Translations under genes and position numbers: made by a program
In this document: piece after piece, positions 20,987 to 53,541 of the stretch
Layout of the letters: each line of letters starts with the position of its first letter
Numbering within the stretch: the stretch's first letter is position 1
The notes under the pieces: generated by a model
What the model saw: the letters and a program-made list of their open reading frames with translations, nothing else
Database searches by the model: none
What the model was told of the DNA's origin: nothing
Source: Porphyromonadaceae bacterium COT-184 OH4590
Lineage (GTDB): Bacteria > Bacteroidota > Bacteroidia > Bacteroidales > Paludibacteraceae
Direction: 5' to 3'
Assembly: GCA_000768855.1 (NCBI GenBank)
Contig: JRAN01000069.1
Span: 1-64,000 of the forward strand
Length of the DNA stretch: 64,000 nucleotides

Positions 20987-22474
20987 TCAGTTTTTGGTAG
21001 TAAGTCGTTGATTTGATGTGGGTATTTGTAGTTCTTCACGATATTTGGCTATGGTACGTCGTGCTATCCGATAACCCTCTTTGTTCAATATATCGGTTAT
21101 TTGGTCGTCTGTAAAAGGATGTTCTTTGTCTTCTCCGCTTACTATGTCACGTATTATGGACTTTACCTTTTTGTTTGATACCTCTTCGCCTCCATCGGTC
21201 TTGATAGCCTCCGAAAAGAAATATCGTAAGGGGAATATTCCATATTCTGTTTGCACATATTTGTTGTTGGTAGCACGCGATATGGTCGATTGGTCATAGT
21301 TGACTATTTCGGATATATCTTTGAGTTTCATAGGTACAAGCGTGGTGTCATCGCCCGACACGAAAAATGCTCTTTGCTTGTTGGTAATAGCTATCATAGT
21401 GCGTATCAGTGTGAGGTTTCGTTGCTTTATAGCCTCAATAAATATATTTGCCTCATCTACCTTTTTGCGTGTAAAAGATATGGCTTGACGTACTTGTGAG
21501 TTTTTGTTTTTGTTTCCCGACAAGTCATTCAACATATCTTTGTATGCTTCGCTTACAGATAGTTTTGGGTAATTGAATCTGTTGAGCGATACATACAGAT
21601 TGTTGTTGTAATGCTCTACTGTAAAATCGGGTATGATTTGTGAAGAAAGATCTTCGGATTTGCTCTGTACCAGTTCGTTGCCCGGTTTGGGATTTAGCTT
21701 CAGTATCTCATCAAGAGCCTCATTAAATTCACTGGCTGTTATATTAAGTTTGGCTTCGATATAGCTGTACCGCTTTTCGGTAAACTTATCTAAATGGTGT
21801 TTGAGTATCTCTTTTGCTCGCTCTATGCTTGGGGTGCTTTTTTTACGGTTTAGCTGTAATATGAGGCACTCTTGCAGGTCTTTGGCACCGATACCGGCAG
21901 GTTCGAGGGTTTGCACCAAGTTTAAGGCTTCTTTTAGTTTACTTTCGGTGGTTTCGATACCCATCGAAAAAGCCAGGTCATCCGATATGTTAGCTATATC
22001 GCGTGTGAGATAGCCGTTTTCGTCGAGATTACCTATTATATACTTTGCCAGATTTTTTGTCCATTCGTCGGCAGATGTCTCATCCAATTGAGCGAAGAGA
22101 TTCTCTTGAAATGACTCTTCCGACGAAAATACTTGGGAAGGCGGAGTGTCTTTGTCGCTGTTGAAGTTTTTTACTATCACATAATCGGATTGATAATCGT
22201 TGTAGCTGTCTGCCTCCATTATATCCAAATCATCTTTTAAAACGGAAGTGTTGTTGTTGTCTGTATCGTTGTCGATAAAATCCTCTTGGTTTGTGTCAAA
22301 CTCTTCGTCGGAGAGAGATACATCGTCGCGCTCCTCAAGAGCAGGATTTGCTTCAAGTTCTTTGTTGATGACCTCCTCCATCTCCACAGTAGAGTACCCC
22401 AACATTCGTATTACCTGATATTGTGTTGGCGAGAGTTTTTGTCGCTGAGTGGTAGATAGTTGTTGCTTCAACAT
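20987..22474 (-). CDS. rpoN: RNA polymerase sigma-54 factor
   Basis: RpoN directs RNA polymerase to -24/-12 promoters that need an ATP-driven activator. The protein (495 residues from the ATG at 22474) shows region I, rich in Q and L ('MLKQQLSTTQRQKLSPTQYQVIRML'), an acidic region II, the core-binding domain ('LEPAGIGAKDLQECLILQL') and the helix-turn-helix 'LKDISEIVNYDQSTISRATNNKYVQ'. The C-terminal RpoN box is ARRTIAKYRE. An in-frame TTG at 22498 is possible, but a -7 box at 22510-22517 would leave almost no leader, so the ATG is preferred. No sigma-54 activator gene lies in the window. Confidence 0.95.
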   Translation of the reverse strand: MLKQQLSTTQRQKLSPTQYQVIRMLGYSTVEMEEVINKELEANPALEERDDVSLSDEEFDTNQEDFIDNDTDNNNTSVLKDDLDIMEADSYNDYQSDYVIVKNFNSDKDTPPSQVFSSEESFQENLFAQLDETSADEWTKNLAKYIIGNLDENGYLTRDIANISDDLAFSMGIETTESKLKEALNLVQTLEPAGIGAKDLQECLILQLNRKKSTPSIERAKEILKHHLDKFTEKRYSYIEAKLNITASEFNEALDEILKLNPKPGNELVQSKSEDLSSQIIPDFTVEHYNNNLYVSLNRFNYPKLSVSEAYKDMLNDLSGNKNKNSQVRQAISFTRKKVDEANIFIEAIKQRNLTLIRTMIAITNKQRAFFVSGDDTTLVPMKLKDISEIVNYDQSTISRATNNKYVQTEYGIFPLRYFFSEAIKTDGGEEVSNKKVKSIIRDIVSGEDKEHPFTDDQITDILNKEGYRIARRTIAKYREELQIPTSNQRLTTKN

Positions 22475-23374: not shown

Positions 23375-23678
23375 GAAGTTGCCTTGTTGGTCTTTTGTGT
23401 ATGGAGTTTGATAAAATTTCATATCGACTCTTTCAACTCTTCTTTTATTTATAAAAGTTAAGCAAAAATATTGCTTTCTAACCCCTCATAAACTCTGTAC
23501 TTTCGCAGTGAAATTTTTTGACTTACGGAAATTTTGCTCCACACGTTCACAGTTTTTATTACCAATAATAAAAAAATAATTGACTGTATTACAGTGTTTT
23601 ATGGTTACGCATGGAAAAGTTTTATTTTGTTTGACAGGTTAAAATTTTCGCCTTAATCACTATTTAATCTAAAATTAT
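23375..23678. other. Non-coding stretch, no gene recognised
   Basis: No convincing ORF is present on either strand. TACTTTCG at 23498-23505 is close to a Bacteroidota -7 box, with a TTG at 23471-23473, but nothing recognisable follows. A small palindrome, CTTTTATTTATAAAAG, occurs near 23441. A short unannotated RNA cannot be excluded. Confidence 0.3.
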
Positions 23679-23802
23679 GCAATAGAAGTGTTTTTTTTGT
23701 TGAAGTATTTTTAATATTATCAATTATAGATAGTACCAAATATCCAATCACGTTTTTTACTTTTAGGTTGGGGACAGACAGCCCCAAATTATTTTCTATT
23801 GC
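23679..23802 (+). repeat. Dispersed intergenic repeat, copy A
   Basis: GCAATAGAA (23679-23687) and TTCTATTGC (23794-23802) are perfect 9-bp inverted repeats. They flank a core (23715-23788) that shares TATTATCAAT, TACCAAA, TCCAATC, TTGGGG, CAGACAGC and CCAAA, in that order, with the element at 49564-49797. The TTGGGG...CCCCAA part forms a hairpin and may also act on transcripts from either side. Confidence 0.6.
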
Positions 23803-23813
23803 GGAATCCGGGT

Positions 23814-44455: not shown

Positions 44456-45223
44456 TCAATCCCAAAAAGAGGTTAGTGGTGAACTTGCATAGGCTTGTTT
44501 GGATGTTTTGCCGAGTTTTGCTTCGAATGCCATTCGTCCGGCTATTACAGCCAATTTAAAGGCTTCTGCCATCTCCACAGGATTTTTTGCAACGGCAATG
44601 GCGGTATTTACCAATACCGCATCGGCTCCCATCTCCATAGCCAAAGCTGCATCGGATGGTGCTCCTATTCCCGCATCTATTACAACGGGCAGATTGCTTT
44701 GGTCTATTATTATTTCGAGCATATCTCTGGTTTTCAATCCGCGATTGCTACCGATGGGCGAACCCAAAGGCATTACAGCCGCTGCTCCTGTGTCTTCCAA
44801 CAACTTGCACAAAACAGGGTCGGCTTGAATATATGGCAAAACCACAAAGCCCTGTTTTGCGAGTTCTTCGGTGGCTTTGAGCGTCTCTATCGGGTCGGGC
44901 AAGAGATATTTAGGATCGGGGTGTATCTCAAGTTTTATCCAGTTGGTATGCAACGCTTCGCGTGCAAGTTGAGCGGCAAATACCGCCTCTTTGGCATCAC
45001 GTACTCCCGATGTGTTGGGTAGCAGGTGGATACGTTCGTGGTAAAGATGTGTGAGGATATCGTCATCGGCATTATCAAGTTCTACGCGTTTGAGGGCTAC
45101 CGTTACAAGTTCCGATTCTGAGGCAAGTATCGCTTCACGCATCGCGTCGTTCGACGAAAATTTACCTGTGCCTGTAAATAGGCGAGAAGAGAAAATTTTA
45201 TCTGCTATTTTCAATTTTTGCAT
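44456..45223 (-). CDS. thiG: Thiazole synthase
   Basis: ThiG joins deoxyxylulose phosphate, dehydroglycine and the ThiS thiocarboxylate into the thiazole phosphate. The 255-residue (beta/alpha)8 protein carries '[20 protein letters not shown]', '[22 protein letters not shown]', '[18 protein letters not shown]', with the Schiff-base lysine, and '[12 protein letters not shown]' for phosphate binding. Its ATG lies 13 nt inside the end of the thiED fusion gene, so translation is likely coupled. thiH follows. Confidence 0.96.
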
Positions 45224-47211
45224 TGTTCTATATTTTTATAAATAGTTTGTATGTAATGGTTTATGTCGCTGCTGTTTATTATTGCTCCCGACATAGCTAC
45301 GCCGTGTATGCCACAAGCAATTATCTGAGACACGTGGTTTACTTCAATACCGCCAATGGCGTAAGATGGTAGATCTATATTTTTGATTTTCATTTGTTTA
45401 ACAACGTTGGCTAATCCATCGATACCGAGTATTGGGCTTAGTTTTTTCTTAGTTGTGGTATGGCGAAATGGTCCCACTCCAATATAATCGGCTCCGTTGC
45501 GGTAAGCCTCTGCCACATCGTCGAAGGTGTTGCAGGTGGCACCGATTATTTTGTTTTCGCCCAAAATCTCTCTTGCACGCTCTATCGTTGTGTCCTCTTT
45601 GCCGAGATGAACGCCGTCTGCACCTACCTGCATACATATATCGACGTTGTCGTTAATAATCAATAAAGTATTATATCTTCTACATATTTGAATAGCTATT
45701 CGGGCTTGTCGAAAAAACTCTTTATCGTCCGTATCCTTCATACGTAGTTGTACCAGTTTTATACCTGCCTTGCAGGCAAGTTCCACTTGTTGTGCAATTG
45801 ATATGCTATCCGAATAGTGGGTCAAAAACATTAATTTTATATCCTTTGTTATCATAGGTATATTTGTATGATATTCACTATTAAAAAACAACAATCCTTT
45901 ATTCTCATTTATCTTACGTGCAACATAAATTTGCCCAAACCTTATTGCTTCAGAGATAGATAACCCTTTTGCCATATACGAAGCAATCGCAGTAGAGAGC
46001 ATACAGCCCGTACCATGCTTTTTTTCATCAGACCTCAATACGGTAAAACTCTCAATATCGTTACCCGAAAACAAGATGTCTGTCGATACAGTGTCGTATT
46101 CTGAACAATGACCGCCTTTGAGAAGAATATTTACTTCATATTTTTTAGATAAATATGATAAATGCTCTTTGCTTATATCTTTGTTAAACAGCGAAATAGC
46201 TTCGTCATAATTGGGTGTAATGAGATATACTTTGTTTAATATTGCTTCCAATAAAGCTCTCTTTGTATTGTCGTGAAAAACAAACCCTGAGGAACTACTT
46301 AAGATAGTATCCCAACAGATTTTTGCATAGGGTATCTTTTGGTTTATATAACAACAAATTTCATAAAGTACTTCAAAAGACTCTACTATACCTATTTTTA
46401 TAAAATAGACATCGTTTTGTGAGGCAATAGCATCAATCTGCCGTTTAATCAAATCAATATCAATCCATTGTACATTATAAAACTCATATTGATTTTGTAC
46501 CGTATTAGCCGTATTTACCCCCAAAGCATATACGCCAATGTCGTTTGCCGTTCTAACATCGGCACTTACACCTGCACCCGACGAGGGGTCAAATCCTGCT
46601 ATGCTAAGTATCCGTGGGGTATTGATATTTCGCCAATTACGTATCACATCGGCATATTGTGGTACATCACTCTTGCCCCAAAGACCGCCCAATAGAGCTA
46701 CACCCGAAAACCCCAAATCGAAAGCTCTATAAAGATTATCTTCACATACTCCCCCCAAAGCTAAGATGGGTTTGTGCAATTCGGATAACTTCTCACGTAA
46801 ATACTTTTCGTCAAAAGCCTTTGTGTAGCCCTCTTTGGAAATACTGTCAAAAATCGGACTCAAAAAACATTCCGATACTCTTGGGTGCAATTGCTTCACC
46901 TCTTGAATACTATGACACGATACCGAAATAAATCCATATCTATCAAACTCATTAAACGATTTATAAAGAGTTGAATTCAGATGAATACCTCTAAGACCGT
47001 ACTTTTCGACCAACTCGAAACAGTCGTGTATCACTATCCTACCTCTGTATTTAGGTTCTATCCGTTCAATAAAATCTGCGTAATTATAGGCAGTATAATT
47101 GGGTTTACGCAAGTGTAGCTGCCTCAATCCATTATCAAACAGTAAATTGCAGATGACAGTCTCATCGCAAAAATCATTAGGAAGAGTGATTACAACTATT
47201 TTTTTAGGCAT
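45211..47211 (-). CDS. Three-domain thiamine protein: ThiE/TenI-like, ThiD, ThiE
   Basis: The 666-residue protein combines three modules. Residues 1-190 are a ThiE/TenI-like barrel ('[28 protein letters not shown]', '[22 protein letters not shown]', '[11 protein letters not shown]'). Residues about 200-450 are ThiD, the HMP/HMP-P kinase ('[27 protein letters not shown]', '[20 protein letters not shown]'). Residues about 455-660 are ThiE, thiamine-phosphate synthase ('[18 protein letters not shown]', '[25 protein letters not shown]', '[13 protein letters not shown]', 'YAIGGI'). The protein would phosphorylate HMP and join it to the thiazole. The first domain lacks parts of the ThiE active site and may be a thiazole tautomerase (TenI). 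Confidence 0.9.
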
Positions 47212-47331
47212 AAATCATAAATTATATAAAATAATCAACTGATTGTATCTTTTATTATTTTATATCTTTGTGTGTTTTCACCACAAGATTTGCAAAATAT
47301 AGACTAAAGCAATAAGTGCAACAAATTGGGG

Positions 47332-47339
47332 CAAAGATA
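47332..47339 (-). promoter_or_regulatory. Possible internal promoter -7 element in the thi operon
   Basis: The minus strand reads TATCTTTG followed by C in the 177-nt gap between thiC and the fused gene. It would allow thiED-G-H-F to be made independently of the riboswitch. No -33 TTTG is seen. Confidence 0.4.
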
Positions 47340-47388
47340 ATAAAAAGTGTTTGAAGTGTTTTTTCTTTATGAAAAATTTATTTAATCG

Positions 47389-49167
<1,779 letters not shown>

Positions 49168-49171
49168 TTAT

Positions 49172-49372
49172 TCAACCTCCTTGTGTTGCTTTTATTAATA
49201 AAATTTTTGAATTATCGCTTAGAGTAAATTCCGCCCAATGGCTACGGCTTATCACAACATTATTGACAGCAATGGCAGTATTTGCAGTATCTATCCGTTC
49301 GTCTGTCAAGAGTTGTACTAAGGTAATACCTTCGGCGACGGCAATTGCTTTTCCGTTTAATACAACAGTCAT
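49172..49372 (-). CDS. thiS: Sulfur carrier protein ThiS
   Basis: ThiS is a ubiquitin-fold carrier that delivers sulfur as a thiocarboxylate to ThiG. The 66-residue protein begins MTVVLNGKAIAV and ends with the required GG (residues 65-66). It is the first gene after the TPP riboswitch. Confidence 0.95.
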   Translation of the reverse strand: MTVVLNGKAIAVAEGITLVQLLTDERIDTANTAIAVNNVVISRSHWAEFTLSDNSKILLIKATQGG

Positions 49373-49426
49373 AAAAAATATTTGAATTTAAAATCGGGAG
49401 GCTATCCAAAAGGAAAGAAATCTACA

Positions 49427-49503
49427 ACTCTAATTTCTACGGCGGCATTATCCGCATCAGATTCGAGGGTATAATCTCAGCCCATCTGTATGAGCACCCC
49501 TTA
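49427..49503 (-). promoter_or_regulatory. TPP riboswitch (THI element)
   Basis: Read on the minus strand, the leader shows AGGGGTGC near its 5' end, then GGGCTGAGATTATACCC, GAATCTGATGCGGATAATG and CCGCCGTAGAAA: the CUGAGA and GGAUAAUGCC signatures of the thiamine-pyrophosphate aptamer. It lies about 55 nt before the thiS ATG. No clear terminator is visible between it and thiS, so control may act on translation or by a weak hairpin near 49394-49412. Confidence 0.92.
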
Positions 49504-49519
49504 TTGTTATAATTTTTTG

Positions 49520-49527
49520 CAAAGGTA
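49520..49527 (-). promoter_or_regulatory. -7 element of the thiamine operon
   Basis: The minus strand reads TACCTTTG followed by C, 17 nt upstream of the riboswitch 5' end, exactly where the operon promoter is expected. The -33 box is weak. Confidence 0.6.
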
Positions 49528-49563
49528 ATAATAAAATCGTAAAAATCGTATTTGTGTAAAAAA

Positions 49564-49797
49564 ATATTGCTGTCCGATAAAAATTTTGGATTTGGAAAAA
49601 AAGTATTGTTATCCGATATATTATCAATGATACCAAAGCTCCAATCGTGTTTTTGAGAGGGTATATTGGGGCAGACAGCTCCAAAAAAGCCAAACTGCTT
49701 TTATAATATAAGCCAAGCCCTCTATTAAAAAAGAGGGTGTTTTATATTGTATTACAAAAATTTACTTATATAAAAAATTTTTGTCGGACAGCAATAT
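49564..49797. mobile_element. MITE-like intergenic element, copy B
   Basis: A 24-bp sequence at 49564-49587 (ATATTGCTGTCCGA followed by TAAAAATTTT) recurs inverted at 49774-49797 with a single mismatch. The 234-bp unit has no real gene. Its core (49619-49685) matches copy A at 23715-23788. A CCCTCT...AGAGGG hairpin lies near the right end (about 49719-49738). The flanks are A-rich, so a target duplication cannot be defined. It sits between the clpC terminator and the thi promoter. Confidence 0.65.
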
Positions 49798-49798
49798 A

Positions 49799-49838
49799 AA
49801 AAAACTACCTAAAGAGTATCACTCTAAAAGTAGTTTTT
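49799..49838 (-). terminator. clpC terminator
   Basis: The plus strand reads AAAAACTACCTAAAGAGT, ATC, ACTCTAAAAGTAGTTTTT: a long stem with few mismatches. Read on the minus strand it follows the clpC stop by about 20 nt and ends in T-rich sequence. It abuts the right repeat of the MITE-like element. Confidence 0.85.
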
Positions 49839-49856
49839 ATTTTTGTTTTTTGAGCT

Positions 49857-52388
49857 TTATACTGCACTATTTTCTGTTTTTTTTAATGTGTGCGATACTG
49901 TTTTTTTTCCTATTTCCAGCCCTGTTTTGTCTTCTTTAAGTTCGAGTGTAACTTTTTGATTTTCTTTGATTTTGCCTAACAAAATTCCTTCTGATATAGT
50001 ATCTTCGATATGATTTTGAATAGCGCGTTTCAGCGGACGAGCTCCATACTGTACATCATAACCTTTCTCGAACAGGAAATTTTTGGCATCTTCGGTAAGC
50101 GATAATTCGATTCCTAACGAATTCAAGCGTTTTTTTAGAATATTCAGTTCTACGTCAATGATTTTATAGAGCGACTCTCTGTTAAGTTGGTCGAACATAA
50201 CTACTTCGTCTATTCTATTTAGAAATTCTGGCGAAAAGGTTCTTGTCAAAGCCTTTTTTATAACCGAACTTGCATATTCATTGTCCTGATTTTGATTAGG
50301 TATAGAGAAGCCCACCCCTTTGCCGAAATCTTTCAATTGGCGAGTACCCACATTGGAGGTCATCACTATTATAGTGTTCTTAAAATCTATTATTCGTCCC
50401 AAACTGTCGGTAAGCCTTCCTTCATCCATTACTTGCAACAAAATATTGAATACATCTTGATGAGCTTTTTCTATTTCGTCCAAAAGTACTATGGAATAAG
50501 GCTTGCGACGTACCTTCTCAGTAAGCTGTCCGCCCTCTTCGTAGCCCACATACCCCGGAGGAGCTCCTATAAGACGAGAAACACTGTATTTCTCCATGAA
50601 TTCGCTCATATCTACTCGTATTACCGCATCTTCATTGCCAAACACAGCTTCAGCCAATTTTTTTACCAACAGAGTTTTGCCCACACCGGTAGGACCAAGA
50701 AATATAAATGACCCAATAGGACGATTGGGGTCTTTGAGTCCCACAGAATTACGCCTGATAGCCTTTACAACAGTCTCTATAGCCTTATTTTGTCCTATTA
50801 CTTTGCCTGCAAGCTCGTCGCCCATACGTATAAGTCTTTCGTTGTCAGACTCTTCAAGTCGTTTGATAGGCACACCACTCATCATTGATATAGTCTCCGA
50901 TACGTCGTCGATAGTTATATGTATGCGATTTTTGTCCTCCTCTTTTTGAAATTCGCGTTGCAGTCGGTCAATCTCTTTGGATAACTCTACTATTTTGTCT
51001 CTTATATTTGCCGCTTCTTCAAAGTTTTGTAATCTGGCAGCATCATTTTTTTGACTTTCGAGAGCAAGCACCTCTTTTTCAAGATTTTCGACATTCTGTG
51101 GTGCTTTCATATTTTTTATTCTTATTCTCGAACCAACCTCGTCGAGAGCATCTATTGCCTTATCTGGGAAACATCTGTCGGATATATATCGTCCTGTAAG
51201 TTTTACACATGCCTCTATTGCATCGTCGTCATAAATAACCTGATGATGGTCTTCATAACGATTTTTTATGTTTTTCAGAATAGTTATAGTCTCCTCTTCG
51301 GAGGTAGGCTCCACTATAATTTTTTGGAATCTGCGTTCCAAAGCACCGTCTTTTTCGATGCTTTCGCGATACTCTTTTAGTGTGGTAGCTCCTATACATT
51401 GGAGTTCACCACGCGATAGTGCAGGTTTGAGTATGTTTGCCGCATCCAGAGACCCCGAAGCACTACCTGCCCCTACAATAGTATGTATCTCATCTATAAA
51501 TAGTATAATATTGGGGTTACGTTCTATCTCGTTCATAATAGATTGAATACGCTCTTCGAACTGTCCTCTGTATTTGGTACCGGCTACTATAGAAGCCATA
51601 TCCAATGCTATAACACGCTTGTCAAACAATATCCGTGATACTTTGCGTTGATGTATCCTGATAGCCAATCCTTCTACAATGGCAGTTTTACCTACTCCCG
51701 GTTCTCCTATTAATACAGGATTGTTTTTCTTTCTACGCGAAAGTATTTGCACTAAACGCTCTACTTCTACTTCTCTGCCTACTATGGGGTCGAGTTTGTC
51801 CTCTGCTGCATATCGTGTAAGGTCTTTGCCAAAATTGTCGAGAGCAGGAGTGTCAGAGTTTGACTTTTTGTCAGTTTTCTTTCTTATTTTAGGGCTATTG
51901 TTTTGAGGTTTGTCGTCGTCGTCCTCGTCTTCTTCAAAATCAAACTTAGATTTTGTGGGCGAACTCTCTTTCTCTATAATATGCTCCTTAACAGCATTGT
52001 AGTCGATGTTTTGTTCTTTTAAGCTGTTGTATGCCAAAGAGTTACCGTCTTTCAAGATAGCAAGTAACAGATGTTCGGTATCTACTGCTTTTTGTTGTTG
52101 ATTACGAGCTTCGAGTGTAGCTATTCGTAGTATATTTTCTGTACTTTCTTGTAATAGTATAGACGAAATATACTTTTCGGGAAAATTAGTTAGATTATCC
52201 TCTATATTTTGCTTGGCTTTGGTAATATCGAAGTTCATTTTTTTCAATATCTTCATAGCATTGCAGTTTTCGATTCTAAACATCGAAAGCATAAAATGTT
52301 CGGGAGATATATGTTTGTGTTTCAGGCGTTCTGCCTCCTCCCAACTGTATTGTAATAAGGTTTTTAACTGTTCAGAATGATTTGTCAT
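49857..52388 (-). CDS. clpC: ATP-dependent Clp protease ATPase subunit ClpC
   Basis: ClpC unfolds proteins and feeds them to ClpP. The 843-residue protein has two N-terminal Clp_N repeats (about residues 1-145), AAA-1 with Walker A GEPGVGKT and Walker B '[15 protein letters not shown]', a middle UVR motif ('[26 protein letters not shown]'), and AAA-2 with GPTGVGKT, '[12 protein letters not shown]' and '[18 protein letters not shown]'. A 'GKGVGFS' loop suits ClpP docking. An acidic linker '[10 protein letters not shown]' follows the N-domain. The UVR-bearing middle domain makes it ClpC rather than ClpA or ClpB. Confidence 0.95.
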
Positions 52389-52460
52389 ATAAAATTATTT
52401 CCTTTTTTAGTATTTTGTTATGATGAATCGACCAATAAAATTGTAAATTCATCTAAACTT

Positions 52461-52468
52461 CAAAGTTA
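52461..52468 (-). promoter_or_regulatory. -7 element of clpC
   Basis: The minus strand reads TAACTTTG (TAnnTTTG), 73 nt before the clpC ATG. A TTTG lies 16 nt upstream, somewhat short of the usual 19-21 nt. Confidence 0.5.
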
Positions 52469-52629
52469 TGTAATATCTGTCTTGCAAATAAAGTGCCACG
52501 CTTTTTTGTTGTTGCAAATACGACATTTTGACATATTTTTTTGACAAAAGTTACTAATTAGCAATCAATAAAAATGATTTTTGTAATATTATTGACTGTT
52601 AATGTTTAGGCAATTATTTGATTTCATTC

Positions 52630-52740
52630 TACTGCTATCCAACAAAATTATTCCTTTTAAGCATTGCTTAATTAAGCTGTGCCAAAAAAGCAAAATTAAG
52701 CAACAGGACTAAATCTCCAAAAGAAGACAGCCCTGCTTTT
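52630..52740 (+). repeat. Diverged repeat, possible copy C of the intergenic element
   Basis: TACTGCTATCCAACAAAATTATT (52630-52652) resembles the left terminal repeat of copy B (ATTGCTGTCCGATAAAAATT) at most positions. CTCCAAAAG...CTGCTTTT at about 52709-52732 resembles the CTCCAAAAAAG...CTGCTTTT of copy B, in the same orientation. The rest has diverged, and no right terminal repeat is visible. The remainder of the gap 52469-52782 holds no gene. Confidence 0.35.
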
Positions 52741-52782
52741 GTTTAATGTTTTTGGTTCTCTTGTTTTGCCTAACTTCCAGAA

Positions 52783-53541
52783 CTAAATTCTTGTCTTCCG
52801 CTTCAGTTCAAAGTCTCTACCGAGGTAGTTTGTGCGGACCGTTTCGTTTTCGGCTAACTGTTCGGGTGTGCCTTGAAACAATATTTTTCCCTCAAACAGC
52901 AGATAGGCTCTATCGGTAATAGCCAAAGTTTCATCGACGTTGTGGTCGGTAATGAGTATGCCTATGTTCTTATTTTTTAGATTCCACACTATATCCTGAA
53001 TATCCTGTACTGCTATCGGGTCAACACCTGCAAAAGGTTCGTCGAGCATAATAAAATCGGGCTCTATGGCAAGGCAACGAGCTATCTCGGTACGCCGACG
53101 TTCACCTCCCGATAGGCGGTCGCCTATGTTGGTTCGTACGTGGTCGAGATGAAACTCTGCTATAAGGCTTTCTAGTTTCTCTTTCTGTTTCTGTTTCGAG
53201 AAATTGGTCATCTCCAAAACTCCTTTGATATTATCCTCCACCGACAGTTTGCGGAATACCGATGCCTCCTGTGCCAAGTATCCGATACCTGCACGGGCTC
53301 GTTTATAGACAGGATAGTCCGTTATATTGAGGTCGTTGAGAAATATTTTTCCCGAATTTGGGGTAACAAGTCCCGTGGTCATATAGAAAGTTGTAGTTTT
53401 GCCCGCTCCATTGGGACCGAGTAAGCCCACTATCTCGCCCTGATGCACCTCAATAGAAACATCGTTTACAACCGTGCGTTTGCCGTATGTTTTGTATAGA
53501 TGCTCTGTGCGAAGTATTTTTTCTTGCTTATTTTCAGACAT
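52783..53541 (-). CDS. lptB: LPS export ABC transporter ATP-binding protein
   Basis: LptB drives lipopolysaccharide extraction from the inner membrane. The 252-residue ATPase has Walker A GPNGAGKT (42-49), the Q-loop sequence '[21 protein letters not shown]', the signature '[16 protein letters not shown]' and Walker B '[16 protein letters not shown]', all characteristic of LptB. It ends a three-gene run (DUF151 nuclease, nucleoside transporter, lptB). Its likely permease partner is at 16.4 kb. Confidence 0.94.

Follow-up and report, generated by a model that had tools for sequence, protein, structure and literature searches.

The 232-bp unit between the clpC and thi genes of Porphyromonadaceae bacterium COT-184 OH4590 is very probably a decayed, non-autonomous (MITE-like) element that carries the ends of a Bacteroidota insertion sequence (IS) of the IS4 family, with a transposase of DUF4372 and DDE domains and with IS4Sa as the best-fitting subgroup. 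It lies in the window analysed here, a 64,000-nucleotide stretch of contig JRAN01000069.1, and was previously described in an initial annotation as a non-autonomous transposable element of a family that was not recognised. The first half of this description is supported, except that the unit does not represent one clean MITE family, being single-copy and having a composite core. The second half can now be replaced by a name, that of an IS4-family IS, so an unrecognised intergenic repeat has been given a family.

The 24-bp terminal inverted repeat with one mismatch reported earlier is found at 49564–49587 and 49774–49797 (96% complementary, 186 nt apart), and 2,000 first-order Markov shuffles of the surrounding 706 bp gave no comparable inverted repeat. 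The arms extend to an imperfect inverted repeat of 57 bp (77%). Because other copies end at TATTG...CAATA, the outermost base on each side has been reassigned to the flanking repeat TAAAAAAA, which gives the corrected limits listed in Table 1. This repeat, present on both sides, has 8 bp, one short of the 9 bp of the related elements, and is homopolymeric (mostly A); it is therefore weak evidence for a target duplication. As had been stated, the unit has no gene: nothing recognisable is encoded in it, and no transposase match was obtained in window positions 47001–53000. The placement between the clpC terminator and the thi promoter is also correct, with the terminator stem at ca 49798–49838 (clpC being assigned by Pfam) and a TPP riboswitch, belonging to thiS/thiC, at 49416–49511 on the minus strand; the latter was the only match in an Rfam search. 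Elsewhere in the window, positions 45211–47211 (minus) hold one gene of 666 aa, in which two thiamine-phosphate synthase (ThiE-type) domains flank a phosphomethylpyrimidine kinase (ThiD) domain.

Table 1. Features of the unit and related repeats, in window coordinates.
Feature	Position	Strand	Remarks
Window copy of second MITE-like family	23673..23808	+	ends AATTATGCAATAGAA...TTCTATTGCGGAATCC
Left flanking direct repeat TAAAAAAA (putative target duplication)	49557..49564	.	8 bp
Whole non-autonomous element	49565..49796	.	232 bp, TATTG...CAATA
Left terminal inverted repeat TATTGCTGTCCGATAAAAATTTT	49565..49587	+	IS left-end profile match, E 1.6e-4
Internal end-motif copy ATTGTTATCCGATAT, 3 mismatches	49605..49619	+	possibly fortuitous, or a second end nested inside
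Core common to second repeat family, 69 bp	49616..49684	+	includes hairpin TTGGGGCAGACAGCTCCAA at 49666-49684
Terminator-like hairpin GCCCTCTATTAAAAAAGAGGGT with T-rich tail	49717..49738	+	like in kind to hairpins inside complete-IS ends
Right terminal inverted repeat TATTGCTGTCCGACAAAAATTTT	49774..49796	-	IS left-end profile match, E 0.007
Right flanking direct repeat TAAAAAAA	49797..49804	.	minus strand: clpC terminator T-run
Decayed 5' end of same-group IS (hairpin, start-codon region)	52632..52741	-	between clpC and next upstream gene; E 1.1e-8

The ends of the unit, YATTGCTGTCCGAYAAAA, were then compared with its own genome (2.39 Mb in 79 contigs) and with relatives, as the initial annotation had proposed, and a dispersed repeat family was found behind them. 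With up to two mismatches, TTGYTGTCCGAYAAAA has 54 matches in the own genome versus 7 for the reversed control, and ATTGYTGTCCGAYAAAA is present without mismatch in 26 of the 200 genomes searched from the same taxonomic family, versus 0 of 200 for the control. Those in named genomes, among the matches listed, fall mainly in Muribaculaceae, Prevotella, Paludibacteraceae and other Bacteroidales. In many cases the distance between an end match and the end of its contig is just 30–130 bp, which is expected since repeats break assemblies. The end sequence was not found in a literature search, and DUF4372 was not mentioned in the literature that was found.

A transposase gene with matching ends, the proposed autonomous partner, could be located in relatives. 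The complete IS at locus L114 (G186:C38 503–1903) is bounded on either side by ATTGCTGTCCGATAAAA and has a single gene, the product of which contains DUF4372 (PF14294) and DDE_Tnp_1 (PF01609) domains. It scores 191.6 bits against NCBIfam NF033592 (IS4 family transposase), for which the cutoff is 115, and at residue 306 it has YRQRWEIELLFKQIK, an exact YREK signature (Y-x2-R-x3-E-x6-K). A near-identical IS with a 9-bp duplication is present in another organism (L170), and together with L163 these are complete IS in relatives, related gut bacteria, that share the unit's type of end. Other complete copies are 1,397–1,458 bp long (ca 1.4 kb).

Duplications were read just outside the Y/ATTG...CAAT/R ends, with left flanks shuffled against right ones as the control. 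Exact 9-bp duplications flank 5 of 55 distinct end pairs, versus 0.11 in the shuffled pairings, and with at most one mismatch the count is 8 of 55 versus 0.44. The five exact cases are two complete IS (L153 and L170) and three non-coding elements, namely L068 and L179, which represent the same 139-bp element in two different genomes, and the 255-bp L077. Since these three have the same exact duplication as the IS, non-coding elements with such ends do move. The interiors of four non-coding elements with IS4-type ends (L077, L079, L251 and L256) contain REP-like palindromes of the GCCCCATAGGGGCGA type. The genus-mate G049 has a near-perfect palindrome of 54 bp, bearing the variant end ATTGCTGTCCGCTAAAC, in ca 40 copies scattered over the genome (for example L323, L325, L330, L331, L332 and L335–L337). 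No 9-bp duplications were seen among the copies read, and some of these palindromes pair around a spacer of ca 110 bp rich in AACAAAG.

The own assembly has no intact transposase of the group, only two decayed fragments (C53:36768–37052 and C70:103981–104133). A single genomic occurrence had been named beforehand as an argument against a transposable element, and here the outcome is divided: the complete unit is single-copy in its own genome and was not found among 60 relatives, while its ends and the 69-bp core recur. The unit has terminal inverted repeats, is short, lacks a transposase gene and has ends common to an autonomous IS in relatives, all of which are properties of MITEs; because it is not multi-copy, we call it MITE-like, or a relic, and not a MITE family. 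The clpC–thi junction is absent in four genus-mates, where thiC is missing and other genes follow clpC; no relative examined has this junction, and no empty site was seen. In four relatives at a greater distance that do have thiC, neither paired ends nor the core were found upstream of that gene. The element was present in 0 of 4 loci at thiC and in 0 of 4 genus-mates 3' of clpC, which is not what a conserved leader, the other counterargument raised earlier, would give. Being single-copy, with only transposase scraps in the genome, the unit is best regarded as an isolated, non-autonomous and probably immobile relic.

The claim that the core is shared with a site 26 kb away also holds. The core matches a repeat family with a copy in the window (Table 1), and its E-value against a profile of this second family built without the element is 2.3e-8. 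The members are ca 140–170 bp long; their ends, GGATTMYGCAWTAGAAA, have 60 matches at up to three mismatches versus 17 for the control, and their hairpin, TTGGGGCAGACAGCCCCAA, has 11 matches versus 0. Further copies include L025, L138, L139, L144 and L280, and no transposase was identified for the family. Another candidate, 22200–22226, was considered as a core-like copy and rejected, as it is a weak match without profile support. Because the core belongs to an unrelated repeat family, the unit is a composite, with IS4-type ends around a second-family piece. The core probably entered by nesting, followed by decay; at C1:121874–122039 of the own genome, a second-family element is found inside a decayed IS4-type left end. 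No source element with the unit's interior was found.

We infer that this particular unit once transposed and is now immobile. The movement would have been in trans: a transposase bound to both ends would excise the unit and insert it into an AT-rich target with duplication of ca 9 bp, the target in this case being the terminal T-run of the clpC terminator. No IS sequence can be recognised in the interior, which would have acquired its fragment of the second MITE-like family through nesting or capture. We have also considered a derivation of the unit from an IS 5' end into which 85 bp had been inserted. The lengths would fit (ca 145 + 85), but no start codon can be recognised in the right arm and the match by covariance, at E 0.022 in the genome, is weak; this option was rejected.

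Another option is that the arms are what is left of two independent IS ends, or of a single IS plus an inversion, now facing each other by chance after decay and never having formed one mobile unit. Many end relics in the own genome stand alone, without a partner, one decayed IS 5' end lies nearby (52632–52741), and the interior is composite, all of which would agree with this scenario. However, the outer 24 bp of the arms match with one mismatch, the terminal bases are symmetric, the same octamer flanks both sides, and the arms are alike over 57 bp, which is more than the two ends of L114 visibly are. We consider it improbable. That the unit belongs to clpC or to the thi operon, as a long terminator acting in both directions or as a regulatory hairpin, is still less probable, to the point of being hard to defend. 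The unit does have a strong single-strand fold (z −7.5), contains a terminator-like hairpin and is positioned between two transcription units, but the terminator of clpC is a separate one outside the unit, thi has the TPP riboswitch, the element is missing from the relatives examined (four with thiC and four genus-mates at clpC), and its ends are scattered through the own and other genomes. The preferred reading is that of a single decayed element with IS4-family ends.

We now turn to the left end of the parent IS, which consists of the end repeat, ca 30 bp, a strong hairpin, a promoter box of Bacteroidota type (TAnnTTTG, assigned by eye) and then the start codon. Compensatory changes, with 10 pairs altered on both sides, back the hairpin. 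The first codons of the transposase, [ST]-[HN]-F-x-G-Q-P, are spelled CATTTTATCGGACAGCC, which is an inverted copy of the outer end. This start-codon arm agrees with the protein's own outer end at 9–11 of 12 positions in 10 of 11 proteins, and at 8 in the remaining one (L265); the loci with the arm (alignment A1) are L114 1763–1903 (minus), L147, L149, L151–L155, L163 and L170. The codon choice in the arm also deviates from that elsewhere in the same genes: the glycine codon is GGA in 14 of 15 proteins versus 33% (P 1.7e-6, with shared descent ignored), CAG is used in 13 of 15 versus 53%, and TTT in 13 of 15 versus 56%. In the predicted RNA fold of the left end, the outer end is paired with the start-codon arm. 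By analogy with IS10 and IS50, such pairing could keep transcripts that come in from outside silent.

Several shortened IS copies lose the IS sequence exactly at this arm, including C48:49665–49810 and C16:31751–31883 of the own genome and positions 52632–52741 of the window. The loci of copies ending there are L311 1501–1646, L326, L104 1507–1652 (G013), L109/L309, L310 and L167 6906–7051, of which L109/L309 and L310 are from two genus-mates (the joins in L309 and L310 were read by eye), while in L167 the arm is joined to the apparent last codons of the transposase. The shortened copies are either mini-elements of ca 130–147 bp or short internal-deletion forms, and the position of the breaks suggests a route toward the former, in which the arm might act as a surrogate transposon end. 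Taken together, one can speculate that the arm of the DUF4372 IS has a dual role, as a foldback block of translation and as a surrogate end at which breaks made by the transposase keep generating mini-elements of ca 130–147 bp. We offer this proposal tentatively and think it rather unlikely as a whole; if true, it would tie the regulation of the IS to the birth of its MITEs. A tandem array of ca 22-bp units (ACGAGCAGAGCGTCAAAACGACT) adjoins the C48 mini-element, at G000:C48 ca 49860–50150 (L061 660–950).

The parent IS, a member of the IS4 family, fits subgroup IS4Sa best by size, duplication length and end sequence. The published traits of IS4Sa are ends of CA------T, a length of 1150–1750 bp and duplications of 8–10 bp (De Palmenaer et al. 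2008, PMC2266710). Likewise, the parent IS has ends with N-A at the start and T as the ninth base (YATTGCTGT), a length of ca 1.4 kb, 9-bp duplications and a YREK-bearing transposase. It differs in that the first base of its end is Y, often T, rather than a strict C, and the unit in the window itself has no transposase. A text search of PMC2266710 gave no occurrence of 'Bacteroid', and Bacteroidota members containing DUF4372 are apparently not discussed there.

The MITEs described in P. gingivalis (MITE239, MITE464/PgRS, also called MITEPgRS, MITE700 and BrickBuilt) belong to the same order and have the same general structure, being short, AT-rich, non-coding and intergenic, with ends common to an autonomous IS and sometimes nested, but their ends, ACGTSAGTTCGA and GAGACYNTTGCA, are of IS5 type (PMC4596501) and unlike the IS4-family TATTGCTGTCCGA found here, so the probability that the unit is a member of one of these families is practically nil. 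Beyond the IS5-type ends of P. gingivalis, IS4-type ends too have given small non-coding elements across Bacteroidales.

In IS10 and IS50, which are members of the IS4 family, the translation of the transposase is under foldback control. The parent IS resembles them in that its outer end can, according to the prediction, base-pair with the region around the start codon in read-in transcripts, but differs in that its pairing arm lies within the first ten codons and is a nearly full copy of the end.
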